Of a DNA stretch of 64,000 bases, positions 1,518 to 62,942 are shown piece after piece. The DNA comes from Deltaproteobacteria bacterium. GTDB taxonomy: Bacteria; Desulfobacterota; Binatia; UBA9968; JAJDTQ01. The stretch is taken from contig JAPOPM010000021.1 of the NCBI GenBank assembly GCA_026712905.1, positions 1 through 64,000 of the forward strand, in the 5' to 3' direction. Under the pieces are notes generated by a model, which saw only the letters and a list, made by a program, of their open reading frames with translations, searched no databases and was not told the DNA's origin. A program made the position numbers and the translations under genes. Numbering within the stretch: the first letter of the stretch is position 1; each line of letters begins with the position of its first letter.

Positions 1518-2474
1518 ATGAAATCGGCCGATTTCGTGGAAGCCCGGCGGCGGCTCGAGGCCAAACCCCAGTCCACGGGCGACAAGCTCACCACCCTTAC
1601 AGAGGCGGTCGGAAAGGTCCGCGACGGCGACCACATTGCCATCGGCGGTTGTCTCTTTTCGCGCAGTCCGCTGGCGGCGCTCATGGAGGTGCTGCGCCAG
1701 CGCCGGCGCGGCCTCACCCTGTCGCGCAACCTCATGTGTTACGAGGGCGAACTGTTCATGGCGTCCAAGGCCGTGGATGGCCTCATGACCAGTTGGTTCG
1801 ACATCGCGCTGCCCTGGGGGCTGTCCCTCAAGCTGCGCGAGGAGGTGGAAGGCGGGCGCATCCGTTTCGAGGAATGGAGCCACCTGGGGCTCGGGCTGCG
1901 CTACCGCGCGGGCGCCATGGGGGTGCCGTTCCTGCCTACCCTCACCATGCTGGGCTCGGACCTCATGGGCGTGACCGATACGAAGACCATGCAGTGTCCC
2001 TTCACCGGGGAGACTTTGTGCCTGGTGCCGGCCCTGTTCCCCGAGGTGGCGTTGCTCCACGTGCACCGCGCCGACCGCTTCGGCAACTGCCAGATCGACG
2101 GCTATCCGCACATGGACACGGACATCGCCAAGGCCGCCGCCACCGTCATCGTCACGGCCGAGGAAATCGTCGACGAGGAGGAGATTCGCCGCCAGCCCGA
2201 CCGCACGGTGATCCCGGGGCTCGTGGTGGACGCGGTGGTGGAGGTGCCCTACGGTTCCTTCCCGCATGAATGCTACGGCCTCTACGAGGCCGACTTCGCC
2301 CACTTCGAGGCCTATACGGACGCCGTCAAGGAGCACGGCACCGGCGCCCTCGACGACTATCTGGAGCGCTACGTCCACGGCGTTTCCAGCCACGAGCAGT
2401 ATCTGGCGCTGTTCGGCGAGGAGACGCTGGAACGCCAGCGGCGCTGCGCCGAGGAGCTTCTGGGACCGCGATGA
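1518..2474 (+). CDS. CoA-transferase family I, subunit A
   Basis: A 318-residue alpha subunit of a two-subunit (glutaconate- or 3-oxoacid-type) CoA-transferase, which would move CoA between acyl-CoA and a free acid. The N-terminal part has the DGDHIAIGGCLFSRSP glycine-rich segment typical of alpha subunits. HRADRFGNCQIDGY in the middle matches the conserved D-x-x-GN-x-x region of the family. Its stop overlaps the start of the next gene as ATGA, indicating translational coupling with subunit B. The substrate cannot be read from sequence. It opens a catabolic gene cluster, so the acid is probably a degradation intermediate. Confidence 0.85.
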   Translation: MKSADFVEARRRLEAKPQSTGDKLTTLTEAVGKVRDGDHIAIGGCLFSRSPLAALMEVLRQRRRGLTLSRNLMCYEGELFMASKAVDGLMTSWFDIALPWGLSLKLREEVEGGRIRFEEWSHLGLGLRYRAGAMGVPFLPTLTMLGSDLMGVTDTKTMQCPFTGETLCLVPALFPEVALLHVHRADRFGNCQIDGYPHMDTDIAKAAATVIVTAEEIVDEEEIRRQPDRTVIPGLVVDAVVEVPYGSFPHECYGLYEADFAHFEAYTDAVKEHGTGALDDYLERYVHGVSSHEQYLALFGEETLERQRRCAEELLGPR

Positions 2475-3232
2475 ACTACTCGGACACCGAGCTTCTGGCC
2501 GTGGTCGCGGCACGCCAGCTCGCCGGCGTCACCTCCGTGTTCGCGGGCGTGGGCGTGCCTTTGGTGGCGGCGGTGCTGGCGCAGAAGACGCGCGCGCCCC
2601 AGCTCGTCATCGTCGTGGAAGGCGGCAGCATGGGACCGCGCATGGTGCCCGGGCGGCTGCCGTACTCCACCAACGAGATGCGCACCGCGCCGCGCGCGCA
2701 GATGTTGCCGGGCATCACCGATACGTTCCTGTTCGCGCAGCGGGGCTTCCTCGACGTGGGGTTCGTGGGCGGTGCGCAGATCGACCCTTACGGGAACCTC
2801 AACTCCAGCGTCATCGGCAGCTACGAGCGTCCGAAGGTACGCCTGCCGGGCAGCGGCGGCGCCAACGACATCATCTCGTTGTGCCGCCGGGTCATGGTGG
2901 TGACCATGCACGAACGGCGCCGCTTCGTGCCGAAGGTGGACTTCGTCACCAGTCCGGGTTTTCTGTCGGGCGGTGAATCGCGCCGCGAGGCCGGGCTCGT
3001 CTTCGGCACGGTGAGCCGCATCGTCACCCATTTGGGCACCCTGGCGTTCGATCCCGAAAGCCGGTGCCTGCGGCTGGAGAGCCTGCATCCGGGGGTCACC
3101 GTCGAACAGGTGCGGGACAATACCGGTTTCGAGTTGCCCGTGCCCGACCGCGTGCCCGTGACCGAGGCACCCAGTGCCGAAGAGCTGGAGACGCTGCGCA
3201 GCATCGACCCAGAGCGGAACTTTCTCGGTTGA
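2471..3232 (+). CDS. CoA-transferase family I, subunit B
   Basis: A 253-residue beta subunit paired with the upstream alpha subunit through a 4-base ATGA overlap. The segment VVEGGSMGPRM near residue 45 is where the catalytic glutamate of family I CoA-transferases is expected. QIDPYGNLNSSVIG and the C-terminal LHPGVTVEQVRDNTGFEL segment are typical of the beta subunit, the latter also seen in 3-oxoadipate and glutaconate CoA-transferases. The ATG at 2471 is preferred to upstream starts because it gives the family N-terminus (ELLAVVAARQLAG) and the coupling overlap. The substrate is unknown. Confidence 0.85.
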   Translation: MNYSDTELLAVVAARQLAGVTSVFAGVGVPLVAAVLAQKTRAPQLVIVVEGGSMGPRMVPGRLPYSTNEMRTAPRAQMLPGITDTFLFAQRGFLDVGFVGGAQIDPYGNLNSSVIGSYERPKVRLPGSGGANDIISLCRRVMVVTMHERRRFVPKVDFVTSPGFLSGGESRREAGLVFGTVSRIVTHLGTLAFDPESRCLRLESLHPGVTVEQVRDNTGFELPVPDRVPVTEAPSAEELETLRSIDPERNFLG

Positions 3233-3315
3233 GGAGTGCATGGACATGGCCGCGGACATGAAAGGACGTTCATAACCGCATGCGCGGGCAGCGGCCGCGC
3301 GAGGAGTCAAAACGC

Positions 3316-4272
3316 ATGCCGGTACAGTTTGGAGTCGCCATTCGCAATTTCGTCGGTCCGGGCGAGACCCCGGACGTGGAGGGGTTGATCCGTTACGCGC
3401 AACGCGCCGAGGAGCTGGGGTTCGAGTCCCTCTGGGCCTGGGACCATATCCTGCTGGGCGTGGACCCGAGTTTTCCGGTGCTGGATTCCCTGACCATCCT
3501 CACGGCCATCGCGGTGCGCACCCGGCGCGTGCGCCTGGGCACCGGGGTGATGGTGTTGCCGCTGCGCAACCCGGTGGTGGCGGCCAAGGTGCTGGGCACC
3601 TTGGACCAGATCTCCAACGGGCGCCTGCTCCTGGGGGCGGCGTCCGGCTGGTACGCGCGGGAATTCGATGCGGTGGGCATCTCCTTCAAGGACCGCGGGC
3701 GCATCTTCGAGCGCAACCTCGACCTGCTGGTGCGGCTGTGGACCGAGGACTTCGTTACCGAGCAGGTGGACGAGTTGAACCTGCGCTCGGCGGTGCTCCT
3801 GCCCAAGCCGGTGCAGAAGCCCCATCCGCCCATCCTCATCGGCGGTTACATCGACCGCGTGCTGCGCCGCACCGGTCGCAAGGGCGACGGCTGGCTGACC
3901 TATTTCTACACCCCCGAGGGTTTCACCAAGAGCTGGGCGAAGGTGCTGGAGGCCGCCGAGAAGGCCGGCCGCGATCCTTCGAAGCTCACGGCCACCAACC
4001 AGTTGGCCATTTACGTGGGGCCTCCCCGCGAGGAAGCCGACGCGCCCATGCGCCACTGGCTGTCCACCGAGTGGGACATCGCCAAGTGGAGCGACTCGAC
4101 CATCGACCACGCCATCCGCGGCACCGTGGACGAGTGCGTGGAGCAGCTCCAGGCCCACGTGGACGCGGGCGTCCACCGGATCATCCTGATCCCGTACCGC
4201 TATCAGCCGGAGCAGTTGGAGATCATCGCCTCGGAGGTGATTCCCAAGCTGACGGCCCGGGCGGGGACCTGA
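3316..4272 (+). CDS. LLM-class flavin-dependent oxidoreductase
   Basis: This 318-residue TIM-barrel protein of the luciferase-like monooxygenase (LLM) family probably uses F420 or FMN. Visible family features are the N-terminal FGVAIRNF strand, LGFESLWAWDHI, RRVRLGTGVMVLPLRNP and GRLLLGAASGWY, and the helix-strand PILIGGY before the C-terminal part. The ATG at 3316 is chosen over 3280 because GAGGAG lies at 3301-3306 and the protein then starts right at the first barrel strand. It sits between the CoA-transferase and the molybdenum hydroxylase with short spacers. Whether it is a monooxygenase or an F420-dependent reductase or dehydrogenase cannot be decided. Confidence 0.85.
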   Translation: MPVQFGVAIRNFVGPGETPDVEGLIRYAQRAEELGFESLWAWDHILLGVDPSFPVLDSLTILTAIAVRTRRVRLGTGVMVLPLRNPVVAAKVLGTLDQISNGRLLLGAASGWYAREFDAVGISFKDRGRIFERNLDLLVRLWTEDFVTEQVDELNLRSAVLLPKPVQKPHPPILIGGYIDRVLRRTGRKGDGWLTYFYTPEGFTKSWAKVLEAAEKAGRDPSKLTATNQLAIYVGPPREEADAPMRHWLSTEWDIAKWSDSTIDHAIRGTVDECVEQLQAHVDAGVHRIILIPYRYQPEQLEIIASEVIPKLTARAGT

Positions 4273-4275
4273 CCC

Positions 4276-5169
4276 ATGCGCTTCGACTACTTCGAGCCCA
4301 CGTCGCTCGACGAAGCGGCCGACCTGCTGCGGGAAGGCGCGGGTACGCGGAAACCCCTTGCCGGCGGCACCGACATCGTCATACAGTTGCGCCGCCGGGT
4401 GGCGCGGTGCCAGGGGCTGGTGAACCTCAAGCGCATACCCGGTCTTGCCGACTGGAGTTGCGCGCGCGGCGGCGGGCTCCACATCGGCGCGTGCACGCCC
4501 ATGCGCGACCTGGAGACCGCGGCGGCCGTGGCCGGCGGCTATCCTTCGTTGTGCGAGGCCATTCGAGTGGTGGGATCGTTGCAGTTGAGAAACATCGCCA
4601 GCGTCGGCGGCAACCTGTGCAACGCCTCGCCGTCGGCCGATACGGCGCCGCCGCTCATGGTGCTGGACGCGATGGTAAGCTACCGGACGGACGATGGGGC
4701 CGAGCAGAGCCTGCCGGTGGAGGACTTCTTCGCGGGACCCGGGACCTCGGTGCTGGGGAACGCGGGGCTGCTGCTGTCGGTGGACGTGCCCGAGCCGGCG
4801 CCGCACACCGGCGACGCCTTCGAGCGTTTCACGCCGCGCTCGGCCATGGACATCGCCATCGCCAGCGCGGCGGCCAGGGTAACCCTGGCCGCGGAGGGCC
4901 AGCGGGTCGAGGCGGTACGCATCGCCCTGGGGGCGGTGGCGCCCACGCCGGTCCGTGCGGTGCGCGCCGAGGAACAGGTCTTCGAGAAGGAGCCCACGCC
5001 GGAGCTGCTGCGGCAGGCCGGCATCGCCGCCATGGAGGAGTGCAGCCCCATCGACGACATTCGCGGCACGGCGGCGTACCGCAAGGAATTGGTGGGCATC
5101 CTGGTGCAGCGGGTGCTGCGCCGGGCGCTGGAGCGCGCGCGGAGCGACCACGGGACGGAGACGCCATGA
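4276..5169 (+). CDS. Molybdenum hydroxylase, FAD-binding (medium) subunit
   Basis: A 297-residue FAD subunit of the xanthine dehydrogenase / CO dehydrogenase family, carrying electrons from the iron-sulfur subunit to FAD. The FAD pyrophosphate loop LAGGTD lies at residues 28-33 and the second FAD motif, NIASVGGNLCNA, near 107-118. The C-terminal SPIDDIRGTAAYRKEL segment is the usual CO-dehydrogenase flavoprotein C-terminal domain. The stop overlaps the next start (ATGA, 5166-5169). With the next three genes it forms a complete four-polypeptide hydroxylase. The size fits NdhF of Eubacterium barkeri nicotinate dehydrogenase, but the substrate is inferred only. Confidence 0.9.
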   Translation: MRFDYFEPTSLDEAADLLREGAGTRKPLAGGTDIVIQLRRRVARCQGLVNLKRIPGLADWSCARGGGLHIGACTPMRDLETAAAVAGGYPSLCEAIRVVGSLQLRNIASVGGNLCNASPSADTAPPLMVLDAMVSYRTDDGAEQSLPVEDFFAGPGTSVLGNAGLLLSVDVPEPAPHTGDAFERFTPRSAMDIAIASAAARVTLAAEGQRVEAVRIALGAVAPTPVRAVRAEEQVFEKEPTPELLRQAGIAAMEECSPIDDIRGTAAYRKELVGILVQRVLRRALERARSDHGTETP

Positions 5170-5663
5170 AACAGCGGTATGTTCTCCGGGTGAACGGCCG
5201 GGACATGGAAGCGGCGGCCGAGCCCTACGAGTCTTTGCTGGACGTGCTGCGGGAGAACCTTCGGCTCACCGGCAGCAAGAAGGGCTGCAACGAGGCCGAG
5301 TGCGGCTCGTGCACGGTGCTGCTGGACGGCCGCCCGGTGGTTTCGTGCCTGGTGCTCGTGCCGGATGCGGCGAACCGGGACGTGGTCACCATCGAGGCGC
5401 TGGCCGAGGAGGGCATGCCACACCCGATCCAGCGCCAGATGGTGGAACAGGGCGGCGTCCAGTGTGGCTACTGCACCCCGGGCATGATCATGAGCGCTTA
5501 TGCGTTGCTGCAGGACAACCCGGACCCCACCGATGACGAGATCCGCTTCGCCATCTCCGGCAACATCTGCCGCTGCACGGGCTACGGCAAGATCGTGAAG
5601 GCGGTGCGGGCGGCCGCCGTCGAAATGAAGGAACAGGCAGGGAACGGAGGCGCTGTGTCATGA
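5166..5663 (+). CDS. Molybdenum hydroxylase, [2Fe-2S] small subunit
   Basis: A 165-residue subunit with two [2Fe-2S] clusters. The plant-ferredoxin-type cluster uses Cys41, Cys46, Cys49 and Cys61 (GCNEAECGSC, then SC). The second cluster uses the CGYC motif near residue 100 and the CRC motif near 136 (GNICRCTGYGKI). It takes electrons from the Mo centre to FAD. It overlaps both neighbours by 4 bases (ATGA at each end), so the operon is tightly coupled. The start at 5166 gives the exact family N-terminus; a longer upstream frame is a shadow of the preceding gene. Confidence 0.93.
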   Translation: MKQRYVLRVNGRDMEAAAEPYESLLDVLRENLRLTGSKKGCNEAECGSCTVLLDGRPVVSCLVLVPDAANRDVVTIEALAEEGMPHPIQRQMVEQGGVQCGYCTPGMIMSAYALLQDNPDPTDDEIRFAISGNICRCTGYGKIVKAVRAAAVEMKEQAGNGGAVS

Positions 5664-6985
5664 GCGAAGACCCCTCCACCGGGAACGCGGAAGAGGCCCA
5701 GGGCGAGTATTCCTGGATCGGCAAGAACGTCACCAAGCCCGACGCCATGGAGAAGGCCCTCGGCGCCACCGAGTACGTGGGCGACATGGTGGTGCCGGGC
5801 ATGCTCCACGGCAAGATCCTGTGGGCGGACACGCCGCACGCGGTGATCAAGCGCATCGAGACCGAGGAGGCCGCGCGCGTGCCCGGCGTCCACGCCGTGC
5901 TTACGGCCGCGGACGTGCCCGGCAGCAACCGCTTCGGACTGGCGGTGCCCGACCAGTGCGCGCTGGCGGAAGAAAAGGTGCGTTCCGTGGGCGACGCCGT
6001 GGCGCTGGTGGCGGCGGAGGACGAGGAGGCGGCGGAGGAGGCGGTGTCGAAGATCAAGGTGCACATCGAGCACCTGCGGCCGATTCTCACCTACGCGGAC
6101 GCCCTGGACCCCGACGCGCCCCGGATTCACGAAGGCGGCAACGTCTTTCAGCATACGACGGTGCGCAAGGGTGATCTGGACAAAGGCATCCAGGAGTCGG
6201 CCGTGATCGTGGAGAACGCCTACCACACGCACCGGATGGACCACGTGCCGATGGAGCCCGAAGCGGGACTGGCCTACGTCGATCCGTCGGGCGTCCTCAA
6301 CATCCTGGTGGGAACCCAGTACCCGTACCGCGACCGCCGGCAGATCGCGCCCGCGCTGGGCCTGCCCATGAACAAGGTGCGCGTGATCCAGGCGCCCATC
6401 GGCGGCGGCTTCGGGCGCAAGGACGACATCACCGCCGAGATCCACGTGGGGCTGCTGGCGCTCAAGACGCGCCGTCCGGTGCGCCTGGTCTACACCCGCG
6501 AGGAGTCGCTCGTCGCCAACACCAAGCGCCATCCCATGGCCATGAACTTCCGCACCGGGGCCGACGCCGACGGGCGCCTCACCTTCCTCGACGGCGACAT
6601 CTACGGCGATACCGGCGCGGGAGTGTCGCTGGGAGCGTACGTCATCAAGAAAGCGGGCATCCACGCCAGCGGCCCTTACGACGTGCCCAACATCCGCGTG
6701 GATACGTATACGCTCTACACCAACAACCTCACCTCCGGGGCCATGCGCGGCTTCGGGGTGATGCAGGCGGCGGTGGCGCACGAGTCCCAGATGGACCAGT
6801 TGGCCCACAAACTGGGCATGTCGCCGCTGGAGTTCCGCCTGAAGAACTGCCTCAAGCCCGGACTTGCCTCCTCCACCGGGCAGTTGATGAACGAGGGTTG
6901 CGGCATCGAGGCGACGCTGCAGCGGATCAAGGACTACATGAGCGCGCGCGACCTGCGCTTCAAACGGCCTCAGGCCGCTTCGTGA
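5660..6985 (+). CDS. Molybdenum hydroxylase large subunit, N-terminal half (NdhL-like)
   Basis: A 441-residue protein equal to the first 55-60 percent of a normal 760-800-residue Mo-cofactor subunit. It has the a/b-hammerhead domain at about residues 20-130 (GATEYVGDMVVPGMLHGKIL) and then the first Mo-cofactor-binding domain, with PIGGGFGRKDD, the GAMRGFG segment and SPLEFRLKN near the end. The C-terminal domain is encoded by the next gene in the same reading frame, after a single TGA and a 15-base spacer. E. barkeri nicotinate dehydrogenase has the same division (50- and 37-kDa chains). A disrupted single gene is the alternative. Confidence 0.85.
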   Translation: MSEDPSTGNAEEAQGEYSWIGKNVTKPDAMEKALGATEYVGDMVVPGMLHGKILWADTPHAVIKRIETEEAARVPGVHAVLTAADVPGSNRFGLAVPDQCALAEEKVRSVGDAVALVAAEDEEAAEEAVSKIKVHIEHLRPILTYADALDPDAPRIHEGGNVFQHTTVRKGDLDKGIQESAVIVENAYHTHRMDHVPMEPEAGLAYVDPSGVLNILVGTQYPYRDRRQIAPALGLPMNKVRVIQAPIGGGFGRKDDITAEIHVGLLALKTRRPVRLVYTREESLVANTKRHPMAMNFRTGADADGRLTFLDGDIYGDTGAGVSLGAYVIKKAGIHASGPYDVPNIRVDTYTLYTNNLTSGAMRGFGVMQAAVAHESQMDQLAHKLGMSPLEFRLKNCLKPGLASSTGQLMNEGCGIEATLQRIKDYMSARDLRFKRPQAAS

Positions 6986-7000
6986 GACGGGCGGACGTCC

Positions 7001-8014
7001 ATGGCGATCAGAAAAGGTTTGGGCATCGGCTCCATGTACTACGGCATCGGCTACGGCTTCAGCCGGGCGGATATCGGCTCGGCGGAGATCGAGATGGCCG
7101 AGGACGGCACCATCACGGTGTACTCGGGCGCCTGCGACATGGGGCAGGGGGTGATGACCGTGGTCACGCAGGTGGCCGCGGAAGAGTTGGGCATCGAGCC
7201 CGACCAGATTCGCGTGGTGGCGGCGGATACCGGTAGCACGCCGGACGCCGGGCCCACCTCGGGCAGCCGGGCCACCTTCGTCCAGGGCGTGGCGGTGCAA
7301 AACGCCGCGGCGGAGTTGCGGGAAGAGATCCGCGACATGGCCTCGCGCATGCTGGAGTGCCCGAAGGAGAACCTCGTGGTGCGGCGCGGGCAGGTGTGCG
7401 AGGTCGAGTCGGGCCGCGAGCTCGTGTCCGTGGGCAAGGTGGCGCACCAGCTCCACTTTCACGGACGGCGCGCGGCCGCGTGGGGCTGGCACGACAACAC
7501 CACCGCCGACGTCGACCCGGAGACTTCCCAGGGCGACGCCTACGCCACCTACGGCTGGGCCACGCAGTTGGCGGAAGTGGAGGTGGACACCGAGACCGGG
7601 CGCGTGCGCCTCACCAAGCTGGTGTCGGCCACCGACGCCGGCAAGGCCATCAACCCGGTGGCGGTGGAAGGGCAGATCGAAGGCGGCGCCACCATGGGGC
7701 TGGGCTACGGCCTCTACGAACAGCACATCCTGGAGGACGGCATCCCGCGCACGAACTCGCTGGCGTTCTACCTCGTGCCCACCGCCATGGACGTTCCCGA
7801 CATCGAGTGCGAGATCGTGGAGGTGCCCGACCCCCGGGGGCCGTTCGGCGCCAAGGGCGTGGCCGAGCCCGCCACCATCCCCACCACGCCCGCGATCCTG
7901 AACGCCATCTACGACGCCATCGGCATCCGCATCACCGAAACCCCCATCACGCCCGAGCGGGTCTTCTTCGCCATCCAGGAGGCCAGGGCCCGGGGCGAGT
8001 TCGAGGAAGACTGA
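7001..8014 (+). CDS. Molybdenum hydroxylase large subunit, C-terminal half (NdhM-like)
   Basis: A 337-residue protein equal to the second Mo-cofactor-binding domain of the large subunit. It begins with the RKGLGIG-YYGIGYG strand and keeps GACDMGQGV, the TSGSRATF motif, DAGKAINPVAVEGQIEGG and the catalytic-glutamate region GPFGAKGVAEPA, so the active-site parts are intact. The start ATG is in frame with the upstream half, and the ribosome site before it (GGGCGGACG) is weak. The intact catalytic residues argue for a working split enzyme rather than a dying gene. Confidence 0.85.
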   Translation: MAIRKGLGIGSMYYGIGYGFSRADIGSAEIEMAEDGTITVYSGACDMGQGVMTVVTQVAAEELGIEPDQIRVVAADTGSTPDAGPTSGSRATFVQGVAVQNAAAELREEIRDMASRMLECPKENLVVRRGQVCEVESGRELVSVGKVAHQLHFHGRRAAAWGWHDNTTADVDPETSQGDAYATYGWATQLAEVEVDTETGRVRLTKLVSATDAGKAINPVAVEGQIEGGATMGLGYGLYEQHILEDGIPRTNSLAFYLVPTAMDVPDIECEIVEVPDPRGPFGAKGVAEPATIPTTPAILNAIYDAIGIRITETPITPERVFFAIQEARARGEFEED

Positions 8015-8037: not shown

Positions 8038-8727
8038 TTGGCGCAACGGGTCGGACTGCTCATCCCCTCGTCGAACACCGTTATGGAGGTGGACTTCTAC
8101 CGCCATCTGCCGGCGTCGGCCACGGTCCACCCGGGACGGATGTACATGGAGGCCACCACCGTAAAGGGCGAGGAGGAGATGCTCGACGATCACTGCCTGC
8201 CCACCGCCGGCGACGTGGCCACCGCCAAGCCGGACGTGGTGGTGTTCGGCTGCACCAGCGCCGGGGCGCTCCGGGGCAACGCCTACGACGGGGAGTTGTG
8301 CCGGCGTATCTCGGAGGTCACCGGCAAGCCCACGGTGAGCGTCATCGAGTCGGTGCGGCGCAAGCTCATGGGCCTCCAAGCGCGGCGGGTGGCGGTGATC
8401 ACGCCCTACATCGACGACCTCAACGTGCGCATCAAGGCCAGCGTGGAGGACGACGGCATCGAAGTGGCGTCGATCCACGGCATGGGCATCAGCGTCAACT
8501 TCAACCTGGCGCTGGTGGAACCGCCGGAGATCATGGCTTTCGCCCGGGAGAAGCTCGGCGCGGCCCCGGCTGTCGACGCGCTGTTCATCTCCTGCACCAA
8601 CTTCCAGGCGGTGGCGACCCTGCTGCAACTCAAGGCGGCGTACGACCTGCCCATCGTCACCAGCAACCAGGCCGCCCTCGAGGCCGTGGGCCGGGAACTG
8701 GGCGTGGAGTTGGTGGGAATGGGATGA
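8038..8727 (+). CDS. Asp/Glu racemase superfamily protein, maleate-isomerase or arylmalonate-decarboxylase-like
   Basis: A 229-residue cytosolic enzyme of the Asp/Glu/hydantoin racemase fold. It shows the N-terminal LIPSSNTVME motif and two cysteine motifs, VFGCTSAG (Cys72) and FISCTNFQA (Cys186), the pair used for two-base catalysis. The SSNT motif is shared by maleate cis-trans isomerases and arylmalonate decarboxylases. The TTG start at 8038 is supported by AAAGGAGG at 8023-8030, ideally spaced, and by the family N-terminus. Placed right after a Mo hydroxylase, a maleate isomerase role would fit the end of an N-heterocycle (nicotinate-type) route; this is inference. Confidence 0.8.
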   Translation: MAQRVGLLIPSSNTVMEVDFYRHLPASATVHPGRMYMEATTVKGEEEMLDDHCLPTAGDVATAKPDVVVFGCTSAGALRGNAYDGELCRRISEVTGKPTVSVIESVRRKLMGLQARRVAVITPYIDDLNVRIKASVEDDGIEVASIHGMGISVNFNLALVEPPEIMAFAREKLGAAPAVDALFISCTNFQAVATLLQLKAAYDLPIVTSNQAALEAVGRELGVELVGMG

Positions 8728-8780: not shown

Positions 8781-9653
8781 ATGGAATTCATGAAGCTCGA
8801 CGGCGCCGTGGATCTGCACGTACACTCGTATCCCTGCGTGTTCCAGCGGCGGGTGGATGACCGTGAAGCCGTCAAGGCCGCGTCGGACGCGGGCATGGCG
8901 GCCATCGTGCTCAAATGCCACCACGAGAGCACGGTGAGCCGCGCCTACCTCATCCAGAAGGAGTTTCCGGACATCAAGGTGTTCGGCGGCGTGGTCATGA
9001 ACCAGTTCGTCGGCGGCATCAACCCGGCCGCGGCCGAGGTGGGTCTGCGGCTCGGCGCCAAGGAGATCTGGATGCCCACCCTCGACGCGGCGCACCACGT
9101 GGACGTTCACGGCGCCCGCGGCAGCTACGACACCCAGACCAGCGGCTCGGACTTCGTCTGGGGCGACCCCATCTCCGCGGTCAAGGACGGCAAGGTGGTG
9201 GACGAGGCCCTGGTGGTGCTGGAGCTCATCGCCAAGTACGACGCCATCCTCGGCACCGCGCACCTTTCGCTGGGGGAGATCGAGTTGTTGGTGAAGGCGG
9301 CCCACGAGCGCGGCGTCAAGAAGATCCTCATCACCCATCCCTACTTCCGCGTGCCCGCGGGCATGAACCTGGACTTCCTGAAGCAGATGATGCGCTACGG
9401 CGCCATCGGCGAGTTCGGCTACTGCACCATCTCGCCCATGTGGGCGTACGTGAACCTGGAGTTCACCAAGGGCATCATGGATTCCATGGGCTTCGACAAC
9501 TGCGTGGTCATGAGCGACACCGGCCAGTCCCATAACCCGCTGCCACCGGAGGCGCTGTGGCTCTACGCCCAGGGCCTGTACGAGAAGGGGGTGTCGCCCC
9601 GCAACGTGGAGAAGCTCATCATCGGGAACCCGCGGGCGATGCTGGGTATCTGA
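8781..9653 (+). CDS. DUF6282 family protein, amidohydrolase-like
   Basis: A 290-residue protein with a metal-hydrolase look. DLHVHSYPC near residue 11 is the HxH motif of metal-dependent hydrolases. Further histidines occur in KCHHEST, TAHLS and THPYF, and an aspartate in VVMSDTGQSHNP, the pattern of a TIM-barrel amidohydrolase. The C-terminal NVEKLIIGNPRAML segment also matches that superfamily. I recognise it as DUF6282; no member has a reaction I can name. A GGAGG lies 8 bases before the ATG. It is in the same transcription direction as the racemase and the cysteine-synthase-like gene. Confidence 0.75.
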   Translation: MEFMKLDGAVDLHVHSYPCVFQRRVDDREAVKAASDAGMAAIVLKCHHESTVSRAYLIQKEFPDIKVFGGVVMNQFVGGINPAAAEVGLRLGAKEIWMPTLDAAHHVDVHGARGSYDTQTSGSDFVWGDPISAVKDGKVVDEALVVLELIAKYDAILGTAHLSLGEIELLVKAAHERGVKKILITHPYFRVPAGMNLDFLKQMMRYGAIGEFGYCTISPMWAYVNLEFTKGIMDSMGFDNCVVMSDTGQSHNPLPPEALWLYAQGLYEKGVSPRNVEKLIIGNPRAMLGI

Positions 9654-9697
9654 CGGACGTCCTGGAAATCGTTGGGAGTGTATTGGAAAGGACAGCC

Positions 9698-10732
9698 ATG
9701 ACGGATTGGGCATCCCGGGGACGGATCGCGGAGGACATCACCGAAGCGGCGGGACTGACGCCGCTGCTGCGCCTGCGCAAGGTGGCGGCGGGGCCGCAGA
9801 GCCTGTGCGGCAAGCTGGAGTTCATGAACCCGTCGTCGAGCCTCAAGGACCGCATCCTGCGGCGCATGGTGCGGAGCGCCGAGGAACGCGGCGACCTCAA
9901 GCCCGGCATGACGATCCTGGAAGCGTCCACCGGCAGTACGGGCATCGCCACCTCGATGATCGGCGCGGTGTGCGGCTATCCGGTGGTGGTGGTGATGCCC
10001 GAGGGCATGAGCGAGGAGCGCAAGGCCTCCATGCGCGCCTACGGCGCCGAGCTGGTGCTCACCCCGGGCGCGGAGAGCGACGTGGACCTGTGCCTGGAGA
10101 AGGTGGAGGAGTTGAAGCGAGCCGAGCCGGACCGCTACTGGGAACCCGGCCAGTTCTCCAACCGGGACAACATCGCCGCCCACTACGAGACCACCGGCCC
10201 GGAGATCTGGCACCAGACCGGCGGCCGGGTGGACGTGTTCGTGGCCTCCCAGGGCAGCGGCGGCACCGTGTCCGGCGTCGGCAAGTACCTGAAGGAGCAG
10301 AACCCGAACGCGAAGATCTACGCCGTGGAACCGGCGGAGTGCCCGATCCTGTCCGGCGGCACCTGGGGGCCCCACGCCATCGAGGGCATCGGCGACGGTT
10401 TCATCCCCGAAAACCTGGACCTGGACTACGTGGACGGCGTGGTGACGGTCTCGTCGGAGGACTCCATCGCCATGGCCCGGCGCCTGGCGCGGGAAGAGGG
10501 GGTCCTGTGCGGCATCTCGTCCGGCTGCAACGTGGCTGCGGCCAACAAGCTGTCGGCGGCGCTCCCGTCCACGAAGATGATCGTGACCATGATCAACGAC
10601 ACCGGCATGCGCTACTTCTCCACGCCGCTCTTCGGCAAGGAAGAGGGCGTGGATATTCCCGACCGCGACCACCCCATCCGCGAAGAGGACAAGGCCAACC
10701 TGGCGCGCCGGAATCTCCACATCGTACGGTAG
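9698..10732 (+). CDS. PLP-dependent cysteine synthase / cystathionine beta-synthase family protein
   Basis: A 344-residue fold-type II PLP enzyme. The PLP lysine is Lys50 in NPSSSLKDR, the substrate loop is EASTGSTG, and the phosphate-binding glycine loop is GSGGTVSGVGKYL. The C-terminal GISSGCN segment completes the fold. The ATG at 9698 follows GGAAAGGA with good spacing; upstream codons in frame belong to the preceding gene. Family members make cysteine from O-acetylserine or do related beta-replacements. As the last gene of a catabolic cluster it may act on an unusual substrate; no serine acetyltransferase is nearby. Confidence 0.85.
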   Translation: MTDWASRGRIAEDITEAAGLTPLLRLRKVAAGPQSLCGKLEFMNPSSSLKDRILRRMVRSAEERGDLKPGMTILEASTGSTGIATSMIGAVCGYPVVVVMPEGMSEERKASMRAYGAELVLTPGAESDVDLCLEKVEELKRAEPDRYWEPGQFSNRDNIAAHYETTGPEIWHQTGGRVDVFVASQGSGGTVSGVGKYLKEQNPNAKIYAVEPAECPILSGGTWGPHAIEGIGDGFIPENLDLDYVDGVVTVSSEDSIAMARRLAREEGVLCGISSGCNVAAANKLSAALPSTKMIVTMINDTGMRYFSTPLFGKEEGVDIPDRDHPIREEDKANLARRNLHIVR

Positions 10733-14954: not shown

Positions 14955-16322
14955 GTGCCACAGGATTTACAGAGTTTCCTGAAGCGATTGAAAGAGGAGT
15001 GTCCCGAGCAGTTCCTCGAGGTGGACGAGCCCGTGGCGCGGGAGTTCGAGGCCACGGCCCTGGTCATGGAGGCGGAGCGGCTGCCGTCGTGCCCGGCGGT
15101 GATGTTCCGCAACGTGACCGGCAGCGAATTCCCCATGGCGGCCAACGTGCTGGCGCACCGGCCGCGTCTGGCGTGGGCCTTCGGCACGTCCGAGGAAGGG
15201 CTGGTGCCCGAGTTCAAGGAGCGCATCCAGCGCCCGGTGGCGCCCAGGGTCCTGACGGATGCGCCGTACCAGGACAACAGCGTGCTGAACGACGCCGTGG
15301 ATCTCCGTCAACTGCCTGTCCTGACCCATTTCGAACAGGACGGCGGTCCCTATGTCACCGCCGGGCTCGTGGTGGCGCGGGACCCCGAGTCGGGCATGAG
15401 CACGCTGGGTTTCCACCGCATGCAGCTCAAGGGGCCGCGCCGGCTGGGCGTCAGCCTCCACTCCCGGCGGCGCATGTTCGAGTATTTCCGCCGCGCGGAG
15501 GAGAAGGGCGAGTCCCTGGAGGCGGCCGTATGCATCGGCGTGCATCCGCTGGTTTCCCTGGGGGCGTTGACGCTGCCGCCCGCGGGAGTCGAGAAGTTCG
15601 CCCTCCAGGGTGGGCTGCTGGGCGAGCCGCTGGAGCTGGGGCCGTGCGAGACCCTGGACGTGAACGTGCCGCGCTGGTCGGAGATCGTCATCGAGGGGCG
15701 GATCCTCGCCGGCGTGCGCGAGAAGGAGGGCCCGTTCGGCGAGTTCACCGGCTACGCGTCGAACCGCAGCACCGAGAACGTGTTCGAAGCCACGGCGCTG
15801 CACTACCGCAACGGCGCGGTCTACCAGGACATCAACGGCGGCGACAGCATGGAGCACTGCCGCTGCCTGTCCATGCCGCGGGAAGTGGAGTTCACCAACG
15901 GCCTGGGGAAGACCATCCCGAACCTCAAGGCGGTGCACGTGCCCGTGCGCTCGGGCATCGGCAGCTTCCACTGCTACGTGTCCATGCGCAAGACCGCCGA
16001 AGGGCAGGGCAAGCAGGCCATCTTCAGCGTCATGGGGGCCGACCACTACGTCAAGCTCGTGGTGGTGGTGGACGACGACGTGGATGTCTTCGACGAGGAA
16101 CAGGTGCTCTGGGCCATCGCCACCCGCATGCAGGCCAACCGCGACGTCTTCATCGTCGACGAGGCCATGGGGACCTTGCTGGACCCATCGGCCACCGACG
16201 CCATCACCGCCAAGATGGGCATCGACGCCACCAAGCCCCTGGGCGATTTCGCCTCGACGCTGTCCATCGAGCCGGGTGCGGTGGAGCGGGCGCGGAGCCT
16301 CATGCGAAAGCTCGCCGGATAG
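14955..16322 (+). CDS. UbiD family decarboxylase (first of a pair)
   Basis: A 455-residue member of the UbiD family, whose enzymes use prenylated FMN to decarboxylate or carboxylate aromatic and unsaturated acids. Visible family segments are the SFLKRLKEE start helix, DLRQLPVLTHFEQDGGPYVTAG, LGFHRMQLKGP, the EKEGPFGEFTGY motif with the catalytic glutamates, and KLVVVVDDDVDVFDEEQVLWAIATRMQ. The GTG start at 14955 follows AAGGAG at 14942-14947. The next UbiD begins 4 bases after the stop, so the two are co-translated and may form a complex. No UbiX prenyltransferase is in the window; the substrate is unknown. Confidence 0.9.
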   Translation: MPQDLQSFLKRLKEECPEQFLEVDEPVAREFEATALVMEAERLPSCPAVMFRNVTGSEFPMAANVLAHRPRLAWAFGTSEEGLVPEFKERIQRPVAPRVLTDAPYQDNSVLNDAVDLRQLPVLTHFEQDGGPYVTAGLVVARDPESGMSTLGFHRMQLKGPRRLGVSLHSRRRMFEYFRRAEEKGESLEAAVCIGVHPLVSLGALTLPPAGVEKFALQGGLLGEPLELGPCETLDVNVPRWSEIVIEGRILAGVREKEGPFGEFTGYASNRSTENVFEATALHYRNGAVYQDINGGDSMEHCRCLSMPREVEFTNGLGKTIPNLKAVHVPVRSGIGSFHCYVSMRKTAEGQGKQAIFSVMGADHYVKLVVVVDDDVDVFDEEQVLWAIATRMQANRDVFIVDEAMGTLLDPSATDAITAKMGIDATKPLGDFASTLSIEPGAVERARSLMRKLAG

Positions 16323-16326
16323 CGTC

Positions 16327-17919
16327 ATGGAGAGCTTCCGCACCTTCCTGGACGCGCTACGCGACGCCGGCGAGCTGGTGGATGTGCACAAGACCGTGGA
16401 CGTGCGTCACGTGGCGGCGTTGGTGGATCAGGCGTCCACCGCGCTGTTGTTCCACAGGGTCGGCGGCTACGACCTTCCCATCGTCTCCGGGTTGTTGAAC
16501 GACCGGAAGAGGATCGCGCTGTCGGCCGGCTGCGACTACGCGCAAATGGAACGGCGGTTGAGCCAGGCGCTCGACCATCCCGTCGACCCCGTGGAGGTAG
16601 ACGACGGCGGCGAACGGCATTGGTTCAGGGAAGGCGCCGCAGTGGACCTTTTCGATCTTCCCGTGCCGGTCTTCTCCGAGTTCGACGGCGGCCCCACCAT
16701 TACCGCCGGCGTCACCCTCGCGCACGATCCGGAACACGGCCTGAACGCCGGCACGTACCGCTTCCAGGTGAAGGAGCGGAACCTCACCGGCATCGACATC
16801 GTCACGCCCAACAACCTGCGCCGGCTGGCGGAGAAGGCCCTGGCGGCCAACGCGCCGCTGCCCATCTCCATCAACATCGGCACGCACCCGCTGGAGTTGA
16901 TGGCGTCGCTCTACAAGGCTCCCCTGGGACGGAACGAGTTGGCCATCGCCGGCGGCATGCTGGGAAGGGCGGTGCGTCTGGGCGCCTGCCGCACCATAGA
17001 CACCCCGTGCCTGGCGGACGCGGAGATCGTGCTGGAGGCCGAGATCCTGCCCACGGGCTGGACCCGCCAGGAGGGCCGCTTCGGCGAGATGACCCGTCTC
17101 ATGGGCGACGTGCACTACAATCCGCACGTGCGGATCAAGGCGATCTCGCGGCGGGAGGACGCCGTCTACTACGCGTTGCACATGCCCTGGGAGAACATCT
17201 GGATCAAGGAGCACGGTTTCCAGGCGGTGCTCAAGCGGGTCCTGGACGCCGCCGGCGTGACGGTGACGGCGGTGAACGTCACACCCGGAGGCTGCTGTCA
17301 CTGGCACGCGATCATCGCCATCCGCAAGCAGCCCGGCGACCCCCAGAACGCCATCATGGCGGCGCTTTCGGTGGCCGACCTGAAGCACGTGGTGATCGTG
17401 GACGACGACATCGACGTCTACGACGCCATGGAAGTGGAATGGGCCATGGCCACCCGGGTGCAGGCCGACCGCGACGTCACCATCCTCTCCGACGCCCGCT
17501 CCAAGCCGCTGGACCCGAGCCTTCCCGTGTCGGACGGCATCCCCACCACCGCCAAGATGGGCATCGACGCCACCATTCCCGACGGCGTGCCCAGGGCGCG
17601 CTATGAGCGCATCACCTATCCTTACGCGGACGAGCTGGACCTCGGCGCCTATCTGGGCGAGGCGGAGGCGGTTGATGTCTCCGGAGGTGCCGGGGCCTCT
17701 GGCGTCATACTCATCGAAGGCGCGGCCGCGCGCATACGCGAGCTACTCACGACCGAGCCCCTGTACTTCAGCGAGATCGCGCGCCAAGTCTCCGAATGCG
17801 ACTTCCCGGGCGTCGCCCGCGCCATGGGTGAGCTTCATGCGGCCGGCGAGATCGACCAAGACGCCGAGGGCCGCTACCGGATCGTCGCGACCCTTGACGT
17901 GATGCAACTCAAGAAGTAG
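16327..17919 (+). CDS. UbiD family decarboxylase with C-terminal winged-helix-like extension
   Basis: A 530-residue UbiD paralogue. Residues 1-455 repeat the family plan (FRTFLDALRDAGELV, DLPVPVFSEFDGGPTITAG, QEGRFGEMTRL, VVIVDDDIDVYDAMEVEWAMATRVQ, KMGIDAT). After a short linker, the last 65 residues (about 462-526) look like a winged-helix unit: a helix, LYFSEIARQV, a second helix FPGVARAMGELHAAGEI, and a wing DQDAEGRYRI. This tail is not part of ordinary UbiD proteins. It could be a docking domain or a DNA-binding element. The gene lies 4 bases after the first UbiD. Confidence 0.88.
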   Translation: MESFRTFLDALRDAGELVDVHKTVDVRHVAALVDQASTALLFHRVGGYDLPIVSGLLNDRKRIALSAGCDYAQMERRLSQALDHPVDPVEVDDGGERHWFREGAAVDLFDLPVPVFSEFDGGPTITAGVTLAHDPEHGLNAGTYRFQVKERNLTGIDIVTPNNLRRLAEKALAANAPLPISINIGTHPLELMASLYKAPLGRNELAIAGGMLGRAVRLGACRTIDTPCLADAEIVLEAEILPTGWTRQEGRFGEMTRLMGDVHYNPHVRIKAISRREDAVYYALHMPWENIWIKEHGFQAVLKRVLDAAGVTVTAVNVTPGGCCHWHAIIAIRKQPGDPQNAIMAALSVADLKHVVIVDDDIDVYDAMEVEWAMATRVQADRDVTILSDARSKPLDPSLPVSDGIPTTAKMGIDATIPDGVPRARYERITYPYADELDLGAYLGEAEAVDVSGGAGASGVILIEGAAARIRELLTTEPLYFSEIARQVSECDFPGVARAMGELHAAGEIDQDAEGRYRIVATLDVMQLKK

Positions 17920-48256: not shown

Positions 48257-48276
48257 GATCGGAAAGGAGACCGTGG

Positions 48277-48735
48277 ATGGCAATGCCAAGTGTAGGGGAG
48301 AAGGCCCCCGCCTTCAGCCTGCCGGTGTCCCGGGACGAGAAGGTGTCCCTGGACGACTACGCGGGCAAGAAGAACGTCGTGTTGGCGTTCTATCCGCTGG
48401 ATTTTACCGGCGGCTGACAGAGGGAATTGAGCAACTTCGAGGCTGACAAGAGCAGCTTCGAGGCCAAAGACGCTCAGGTACTGAGCGTAAGCGTGGATTC
48501 GGTTTTCGCCCACCAGGCGTTCGCGGAGAAGATGGGCGGCATCAGCTTCCCGATGCTCTCCGATTTCTGGCCCCACGGGGAGGTGTGCGAGCAGTACGAC
48601 TGCCTGCGCCCCCAGGGCTTTCCCAAGCGGGCGGTTTTCATCATCGACAAAGAGGGAACCGTGCGTTACGCCCAGCTCTACGAGGGCGGCATTCCCGAGA
48701 ACAAGGACCTGTTGGCGGAACTCGACAAGCTGTAG
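48277..48735 (+). CDS. Selenocysteine-containing peroxiredoxin (PrxU-like), TGA at codon 47 read as Sec
   Basis: A 152-residue thioredoxin-fold peroxidase reducing peroxides. The frame from ATG 48277 (GGAAAGGAGA at 48261-48270 is the ribosome site) reads MAMPSVGEKAPAFSLPV to FYPLDFTGG, meets TGA at 48415-48417, and continues without any break as QRELSNFEAD to the TAG at 48735. In ordinary peroxiredoxins the corresponding site is F-T-x-x-C-T-x-E, so the TGA stands exactly for the peroxidatic Cys. Two cysteines (104 and 109) could be resolving or secondary. Peroxiredoxins with Sec here are known (PrxU of Eubacterium acidaminophilum). A weak stem-loop follows the TGA (48427-48449). Without Sec, only a 102-residue piece lacking the active site would be made from TTG 48427. 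No sel genes are in the window. Confidence 0.88.
48427..48449 (+). promoter_or_regulatory. Candidate bacterial SECIS stem-loop (weak)
   Basis: Starting 9 bases after the TGA, TTGAGC can pair with GCT and CAA across a 2-base bulge, with a 9-base loop AACTTCGAG. An alternative fold pairs CAG (48418-48420) with CTG (48443-48445) and GAA (48424-48426) with TTC. Neither is strong by eye. Bacterial SECIS elements are variable, so only folding of this region can decide. Confidence 0.3.
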
Positions 48736-60650: not shown

Positions 60651-62942
60651 CTACTTCCGGTCGCGCTCCTCCAGCGCCCAGAAGACGCGTTCCGGGGTCA
60701 GCGGCAGGTCCCGGATGCGCGACTTGATCGCGTCCGCCACGGCGTTGCCGATGGCCGCGGGGGTCGGCGCCAGCCCCGGTTCCCCGAGTCCCTTGGCGCC
60801 GTAGGGGCCCTCGGGCTCGGCGCACTCGACGACGATGGGAATGATCTCGGGCACGTCCACCGACGTGACCAGGTGGTAGTCCAGGAACGAGGGGTTGCGC
60901 ACCTTGCCGGTCTCGTCGATGACCAGGTTCTCGTGGAGCGCGGAGCCGATGCCCTGGGCGACGCCGCCCTCGATCTGCGCCGCGCAGTTGAGCGGGTTGA
61001 TGGCCTTGCCCACGTCGTGAGCCGCCGACACCCGGTGCAGCCGAACCCGGCCGGTCTCCTCGTCCACCGAGGCCTCCGCGGCCTGGGTGGCGTACATGTA
61101 GAAGGCCGACGCGTGGTCGCTGTGGCCGGTCTCCAGATCGAGGTCCTTGCCGATCTCGTAGGTGTAGGAGGCGTCCCCGCGTACCACCGCGTCGGTTCCC
61201 AGGCGCCGCCGGATCAGTTCGCCGTAGGTCAGGGCCATGTCCTCGTTGTCCTTGAGGCGCACCTTGCCGTCGGCCGCCACCAGCTCTTCCTGCTTGCCTT
61301 CGAGCGCGGGTCCGGCCATTTCCAGGAGCTGCTCGCGCGCGTGGATGGCGGCTCCGCGCACGGCGTTGCCCATGTGGTAGGTGCTGCGGCTGGACGTGGT
61401 GGAGGCGTCGAAGGGGATGGCGTCGGTGTCCAGGGGCGCCACCTGCACCTGCTCGATGGGTATCCGCAATTCTTCGGCGGCCACCTGCGAGAGAATCGTG
61501 TTGCTGCCTTGTCCGATCTCCACCGTGCCGGCCAGCACGGTCACCCGGTTGTCCGCGTCCACGAGCACGCCCGCCTTCGAGGTGGTGGGCGAACGGGTGG
61601 GTTTGGAGATGCAGGCCAGGCCGCGGCCGACTCCTGCCGGCTTGGGCTTGCCCCAGTCGATGGCCGCCGCCGCCTTGGTCAGGGTCTCGGTGAGGCCGAC
61701 GCTGTGCAGTTGTTCGCCCCAGTAGGCCATGTCGCCGTCCACGAAGACGTTCTTGAGGCGGAACTCGAGGGGGTCCATGGCGAGCCGGCGCGCCAGCTCG
61801 TCCATGTGCTGCTCGGTGGCCCAGGCGCCCTGAGGGATGCCGTAGCCGCGAAAGGCGCCTGCCACGGGCTTGTTGGTGTAAACCGCGTAGCCGTCCACGT
61901 GCACGTGGGGGATGCGGTAGGGGCCGGGGGAGGGGAGGCTGCCCCGGATGCACACCGTGGGGCTCTTCTCGGCGTATGCGCCGCCGCCCCAGTAGAGCGT
62001 CATGTGCCGGGCCATGAGCGTGCCGTCGTTCTTGACCCCGCTCTTGATGTGCACGGTGGCCTCGTGCCGCACCAGCGTCGAGATGAAGGTCTCCTCGCGA
62101 TTGAACTTCAGCCGCACCGGCCGCCCGCCGGTTTGGAACGCCAGGCCCATGGCGATGGGCTCGAGCTTGAGCCCGCCCTTGGAGCCGAAGCCGCCACCCT
62201 GGAGCGGGTTGATGAGGCGGATCTGTTCCTGCGGCAGGCCCAGGGCCTCGGACACTTCCGTGAGCGCCCGGAAGGGCGCGTCGTTGGCCACCCACACGGT
62301 GACCCGTCCGGTTTCGGGGTCCACCTGGGCATGGGCCGAATGGGGCTCCATGGCGGCGTGCTGGATGATCGGCACGTAGTACTTTTCCTCCAACACCATG
62401 TCCGACTGCCTGAAACCCTCGGCGGTGTCGCCGGTGCGCAGCTTGAAGTGCTCGCACACGTTGGGCATGGGCGCGCCGACGATGAAGGGCGCCTTGCGGT
62501 AGCTCTCGAACTCCTCGTGAATGGCCACGGCGCCGGGCTGGCAGGCGTCCTCGGGGGTGAAGTAGGCGGGCAGGTCCTCGTACTCCACCTCGATGAGCTT
62601 GAGCGCCTCCTGGGCCGTGTCTTCGTCCACCGCGGCCACGGCGGCCACGGGCTCGCCGATGTAGCGCACCTTGCCCTGGGCCAGGAAGGGCTTGTCCTTG
62701 ATGGACTCGCCGTGGGTCCAGGGCGTGTCGGCGCCGGAGATGGCCGCCACCACGCCCGGGTGTTGGCGCGCCTTCTCCAGGTCGATGCGGACGATGCGCG
62801 CGTGCGCCCGGGTGCTGAACAGCACCTTGCCGTGCAGCATGTCCGGCAGCACCAGGTCGTAGCCGTAGGTGGCGGTTCCGGTGACCTTCTCGTCGACGTC
62901 GACCCGGGTGACGGGACGGCCGACTACCTTGAGATCATCCAT
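60651..62942 (-). CDS. Molybdenum hydroxylase, full-length large subunit
   Basis: A 763-residue Mo-cofactor subunit of the xanthine dehydrogenase family, undivided, unlike the first cluster. It has the a/b-hammerhead (GTATYGYDLVLPDMLHGKVLF), the first Mo domain (QGGGFGSKGGL; GAFRGYGIPQ; DPLEFRLKN), and the second (VEIGQGSNTILSQ, the STYHMGNAV region, HDVGKAINPLNCAAQIEGG and GPYGAKGLGEPGLAPT with the catalytic Glu). It overlaps the small subunit stop by 8 bases. Substrate is unknown. Confidence 0.92.
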   Translation of the reverse strand: MDDLKVVGRPVTRVDVDEKVTGTATYGYDLVLPDMLHGKVLFSTRAHARIVRIDLEKARQHPGVVAAISGADTPWTHGESIKDKPFLAQGKVRYIGEPVAAVAAVDEDTAQEALKLIEVEYEDLPAYFTPEDACQPGAVAIHEEFESYRKAPFIVGAPMPNVCEHFKLRTGDTAEGFRQSDMVLEEKYYVPIIQHAAMEPHSAHAQVDPETGRVTVWVANDAPFRALTEVSEALGLPQEQIRLINPLQGGGFGSKGGLKLEPIAMGLAFQTGGRPVRLKFNREETFISTLVRHEATVHIKSGVKNDGTLMARHMTLYWGGGAYAEKSPTVCIRGSLPSPGPYRIPHVHVDGYAVYTNKPVAGAFRGYGIPQGAWATEQHMDELARRLAMDPLEFRLKNVFVDGDMAYWGEQLHSVGLTETLTKAAAAIDWGKPKPAGVGRGLACISKPTRSPTTSKAGVLVDADNRVTVLAGTVEIGQGSNTILSQVAAEELRIPIEQVQVAPLDTDAIPFDASTTSSRSTYHMGNAVRGAAIHAREQLLEMAGPALEGKQEELVAADGKVRLKDNEDMALTYGELIRRRLGTDAVVRGDASYTYEIGKDLDLETGHSDHASAFYMYATQAAEASVDEETGRVRLHRVSAAHDVGKAINPLNCAAQIEGGVAQGIGSALHENLVIDETGKVRNPSFLDYHLVTSVDVPEIIPIVVECAEPEGPYGAKGLGEPGLAPTPAAIGNAVADAIKSRIRDLPLTPERVFWALEERDRK

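Follow-up and report, generated by a model that had tools for sequence, protein, structure and literature searches.

A 64,000-nucleotide stretch of a Deltaproteobacteria bacterium (class Binatia; contig JAPOPM010000021.1, hereafter the window) carries four consecutive genes on the + strand for a molybdenum (Mo) hydroxylase whose Mo-binding subunit is divided into two polypeptides. They encode a flavin adenine dinucleotide (FAD)-binding subunit of 297 aa (4276..5169; PF00941 4e-43, PF03450), a [2Fe-2S] (FeS) subunit of 165 aa (5166..5663; PF01799 7e-34, PF00111), the N-half of the Mo subunit (441 aa, 5660..6985; hammerhead and MoCoBD_1 domains, PF01315 and PF02738 2e-80) and its C-half (337 aa, from the ATG at 7001 to 8014; MoCoBD_2, PF20256 9e-78), the two halves resembling NdhL and NdhM of Eubacterium barkeri nicotinate dehydrogenase (NDH). 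Successive ATGA overlaps join the FAD, FeS and N-half genes. Pfam matches are strong for all four open reading frames (ORFs), each Mo half spanning its own domain or domains, which bears out the four-gene enzyme proposed in an original prediction made from this DNA alone. The prediction also held that catalytic residues are kept in both halves, and residue alignment agrees, with Gln220, Arg363 and Phe365 in the N-half and Glu289 (codon 7865-7867) in the C-half. The FAD, [2Fe-2S] and hammerhead/MoCoBD_1/MoCoBD_2 domains, together with the catalytic Glu, are those of the xanthine dehydrogenase family, and the division into two separate conserved genes falls before the second molybdenum cofactor domain. 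Among the approximately 42 MoCoBD_2 matches of the window genome, this locus alone has a stop ahead of a domain that is otherwise complete, and the remaining Mo hydroxylases are undivided as far as the contigs show; on the minus strand of the window, a second Mo hydroxylase (60651-62942) likewise has the undivided large subunit that had been predicted. Some 42 such matches in a 4.8 Mb genome (G000) constitute an unusually large Mo hydroxylase set, and a first look at other genus members gave a similar number of candidates.

The N-half ends in a TGA (6983-6985) followed by a 15-base gap, and this junction (6983..7000, + strand) is variable among relatives. In the window genome both halves share one frame that would be open if the stop were read through, and the worry that an undivided gene had been broken by a nonsense mutation or by mis-sequencing was a fair one. 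Our search for the same locus covered 58 relatives; the genus comprises nine genomes (G000-G008, window genome included), and G033 belongs to another family of the same order (its locus is L158). The C-half was found in all eight other genus genomes at 93-98% identity and in G033 at 76%, and all nine keep the split, no genus member having an undivided gene. The spacing from N-half stop to C-half start is +15 in the window, +7 in one relative, +20 in five, -10 in two and -4 in G033, and in every relative checked (eight genus members and G033) the C-half lies in a different frame from the N-half, the shared frame being found only in the window. Ratios of nonsynonymous to synonymous substitution rates of 0.05-0.18 for both halves (against six relatives) indicate purifying selection. 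The split Mo subunit is genuine and stable; given the other junctions of the relatives, some of them overlapping, and the selection acting on both halves, the pseudogene reading of the TGA at 6983 was rejected and retains practically no probability. Decoding of this TGA as selenocysteine, or its readthrough, to give a fused protein would suit an organism that evidently decodes selenocysteine (in-frame TGA codons are found in selD and in a peroxiredoxin-like gene) and whose intervening frame is open. However, such a product is impossible in the relatives because their C-half lies in another frame (L022-L030), in some cases overlapping the stop of the N-half, and the tail residues flanking the TGA vary among genus members; selenocysteine and readthrough were rejected, and we give them hardly any credence.

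The prediction went further and inferred, from the likeness to NDH, a labile selenium on the molybdenum. Two genes, yqeB (TIGR03309) and yqeC (TIGR03172), have been proposed as markers of the labile-selenium trait (PMC2276186), and in C. difficile deletion of yqeB mimics the loss of selD while deletion of yqeC does not (PMC11448449). The genome search that had been suggested as a check gave a divided answer: selD is present in all nine genus genomes, with an in-frame TGA of its own, but neither yqeB nor yqeC occurs in any of them, the one-contig G004 and the four-contig G001 included. The marker search evidently works, because it recovered both genes from many sister-family (f3) genomes. Moreover, selD is accounted for by selenocysteine use, given its own in-frame TGA and the GrdB-like selenoproteins found in all nine genus genomes. 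Nor is the split a marker of selenium, since the distribution of yqeB and yqeC does not track it: among hosts that are mostly metagenome-assembled genomes of unknown completeness, yqeB accompanies 16 of 34 split loci (two of these known from the C-half alone) as against 13 of 16 fused ones, and in the large split clade of Pseudomonadota and Acidobacteriota yqeC is absent from 16/16 hosts and yqeB from 15/16. All nine genus genomes contain domains of the XdhC/CoxI family, whose role in known Mo hydroxylases is sulfuration. Judging from these gene contents, the enzyme most likely carries an ordinary Mo=S ligand and not labile selenium, and this part of the prediction is not supported.

That selenium is used elsewhere in the window is supported by a peroxiredoxin-like ORF (48259-48732, + strand) with an in-frame TGA at 48415, at the expected peroxidatic Cys (FYPLDFTGG-U-QRELSNF), i.e., a probable selenoprotein. 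Genomes G000-G008 each contain as many as three selenoprotein genes of the GrdB family, which is unexpected outside amino-acid fermenters. G033 possesses yqeC without yqeB and, immediately upstream of its split operon (L158:4171-7841), an NMT1-like gene, a GrdB-like ORF that ends at an in-frame TGA (T-U-GTCSR motif) and a GrdE-like gene.

The likeness to NDH stands in some respects and fails in others. Both Mo halves find their best PDB match in the NDH structure, 3HRD (N-half, 3HRD_A, 379 bits; C-half, 3HRD_B, 238 bits), and the Mo subunit is divided at the same residue as NdhL/NdhM. The equivalents of Gln208L (Gln220), Arg351L (Arg363), Phe353L (Phe365), Tyr13M (Tyr14) and Glu289M (Glu289) are all kept, the roles of these pocket residues being assigned by 3HRD numbering via alignment. 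Such features, along with the same four-gene set and the presence of selD, would be expected of a true selenium-containing NDH orthologous to that of E. barkeri. However, besides the absence of yqeB and yqeC across the genus, the tree that had been proposed as a check, here built on both Mo halves joined, keeps the window enzyme apart from the NDH clade, and grouping the two was disfavoured in the approximately unbiased (AU) test (p=0.011; the groups for AU tests were partly picked after the first tree, which makes the p-values optimistic). The position of NdhL Leu243, which corresponds to bovine Glu802, is occupied by Asp255 in the window enzyme, by Leu in all sampled NDH-clade rows and by Glu in L072 (a Desulfobacterales relative), and the Asp suggests a related but different substrate. 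The NDH FAD subunit (3HRD_C, 79 bits) ranks only ninth among the PDB matches of the window FAD subunit, behind carbon monoxide dehydrogenase and Kdh types, and no E. barkeri-type nicotinate fermentation genes were recognised among the profiled neighbours. By the tests run, the enzyme is NDH-like in architecture but not an NDH orthologue, and we regard the opposite view as quite improbable.

Divided Mo subunits are not confined to these two enzymes. Roughly half of the best 80 relatives in GTDB genomes are split, their hosts being Bacillota (Moorella thermoacetica, Paradesulfitobacterium), Desulfobacterota, Alpha- and Betaproteobacteria, Acidobacteriota and one actinomycete. In every case checked the C-half starts at the same place, right before a K-R-G-x-G motif. 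The two genes usually overlap by 4 bases (ATGA), an arrangement often indicative of coupled translation. The split Mo subunit of M. thermoacetica (L089) had no FAD or FeS subunit similar to those of the window in its fetched flanks. In the tree, the window enzyme, its Binatia genus, G033 and two Desulfobacterales (L072 and L073) form a fully supported clade in which all are split, and the NDH (3HRD) clade is mixed, with split L129, L119, L076, L092 and L077 and fused L142, L143 and L133 (Clostridium magnum). The split label changes 8-9 times on the tree, at least 6-7 of these changes being forced by well supported branches, and the AU test spoke weakly against a single clade, i.e., one origin, for every split lineage in the larger group (p=0.033). 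Repeated splitting or re-fusion, in either direction, appears likely. The fused L131, L142, L143, L133 and L099 are nested among split rows and are likely re-fusions at the same residue.

The FAD subunit appears to have a history of its own. Its best PDB matches are CutM and Kdh (125-123 bits), and it is 40-47% identical to paralogues in its own genome. It shares only 25-29% identity with its counterparts in L072 and L073, although the Mo halves of these two are the nearest kin outside the order. The FAD module was probably exchanged.

The surroundings of the enzyme are conserved across the genus in the following order, as far as contigs reach: miaA, the two subunits of a coenzyme A (CoA)-transferase, a luciferase-like (LLM) oxidoreductase, the FAD, FeS, Mo-N and Mo-C genes, a maleate-isomerase/arylmalonate-decarboxylase-like gene, DUF6282, a pyridoxal phosphate (PLP) enzyme of the cysteine synthase type, a threonine-synthase type gene and two UbiD genes. 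The window places all of those listed here on the + strand, with synteny added to the domain evidence. Upstream lie subunit A of a CoA-transferase of the glutaconate type (1518..2474; PF01144; 1POI_A 1e-41), subunit B (2471..3232; weak TIGR02428) and the LLM flavin/F420 oxidoreductase (3313..4272; PF00296 and TIGR03619 over cut-off), the CoA-transferase being closest to glutaconate CoA-transferase (1POI). Downstream are the maleate isomerase/arylmalonate decarboxylase-like protein, with both Cys motifs and a TTG start after AGGAGG (8038..8727; PF17645; 3IXM, 2XEC, 4FQ7), the DUF6282 protein (8781..9653; PF19799), a probable metal-dependent hydrolase with a DLHVH motif, the PLP enzyme (9692..10732; PF00291, TIGR01139) and two adjacent UbiD-family decarboxylases (14955..17919), whose synteny extends to G033 as well as to several genus members. 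The DUF6282 protein had no PDB sequence match, and its predicted structure reached a pLDDT of 48. G033 keeps the operon from the FAD gene onward, and L072 has DUF6282 before and a single UbiD copy after its split enzyme. This gene content points to an operon for the degradation of a carboxylated ring compound. More tentatively, and at less than even odds, we propose an undescribed Binatia ring-compound pathway in which a split Mo hydroxylase free of selenium and an LLM monooxygenase would act together with DUF6282 as a hydrolase of rings or amides, a maleate-type isomerase, UbiD decarboxylases and a CoA-transferase of the glutaconate type. The Binatota genome paper makes no mention of Mo hydroxylases or selenium. 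A sponge is the probable source of one genus member, bin RHO1_bin_74.

Taken as a whole, we favour, with a probability of roughly 80%, a four-subunit Mo=S hydroxylase with a split Mo subunit that belongs to a conserved catabolic operon and acts on a ring substrate. Two adjacent and probably translationally coupled genes would supply the Mo-binding subunit as two polypeptides, which are expected to assemble in the manner of NdhL/NdhM and to form the active site where they meet, Gln, Arg and Phe coming from the N-half and the catalytic Glu and a Tyr from the C-half. The electron path would lead from Mo to FAD by way of two [2Fe-2S] clusters, and the Mo=S ligand would be matured by an XdhC/CoxI-type route, with no labile selenium. 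The substrate to be hydroxylated is predicted to be a ring compound, probably heteroaromatic or carboxylated, and its degradation may end in unsaturated dicarboxylates handled by the maleate-isomerase-like enzyme and the glutaconate-type CoA-transferase. Several points weigh against this interpretation. The sister Desulfobacterales host L072 carries yqeB and yqeC; the cofactor is unreadable from sequence; the two genes are genetic markers, yqeB with one deletion study behind it (PMC11448449), which makes their absence strong but indirect evidence; and the XdhC domains from which Mo=S is deduced could serve the approximately 40 other Mo hydroxylases. One might instead suppose that labile selenium is inserted by a route independent of YqeB and YqeC, a supposition to which the presence of SelD lends something, as does the marker pair in the host of the nearest split relative outside the order (the same L072). 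Nevertheless, XdhC-type sulfuration is at hand, and we consider selenium insertion of this kind very unlikely. We know of no such route.

The Mo=S hydroxylase that we favour implies that a split Mo subunit and labile selenium are separable traits, which have often been read together from one well-known enzyme. The split is found in many phyla at one fixed residue, and because its state has changed on the tree at least about six times and it is no predictor of selenium, best-hit annotation as 'nicotinate dehydrogenase medium/large molybdopterin subunit' is unsafe. The conserved operon further suggests that this lineage, which has about forty Mo hydroxylases in each genome, possesses a catabolic pathway that is as yet uncharacterised.

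Among known systems, the undivided large subunits of the XdhA/PucD and CoxL types have the same domains and catalytic residues in one polypeptide. A four-gene set has been described in Sphingomonas melonis TY (ndrB1B2B3B4), two members of which, ndrB3 and ndrB4, are each similar to the large subunit of nicotine hydroxylase (PMC5239795); it is likened to the window enzyme by this published description, and it differs in acting in nicotine degradation. The closest relatives outside the order are the Desulfobacterales sister group (L072, DRHF01000415; L073, JADHXI010000129; 100% support), which share 49-53% identity in both halves but are arranged LN-LC-FAD-FeS, unlike the FAD-FeS-LN-LC order of the window. 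NdhFSLM of E. barkeri offers the same four polypeptides, split residue and Gln/Arg/Phe/Tyr/Glu positions, whereas the window enzyme lies in another clade, with Asp at NdhL 243, a FAD subunit of another lineage, a host without yqeB/yqeC and different operon partners.

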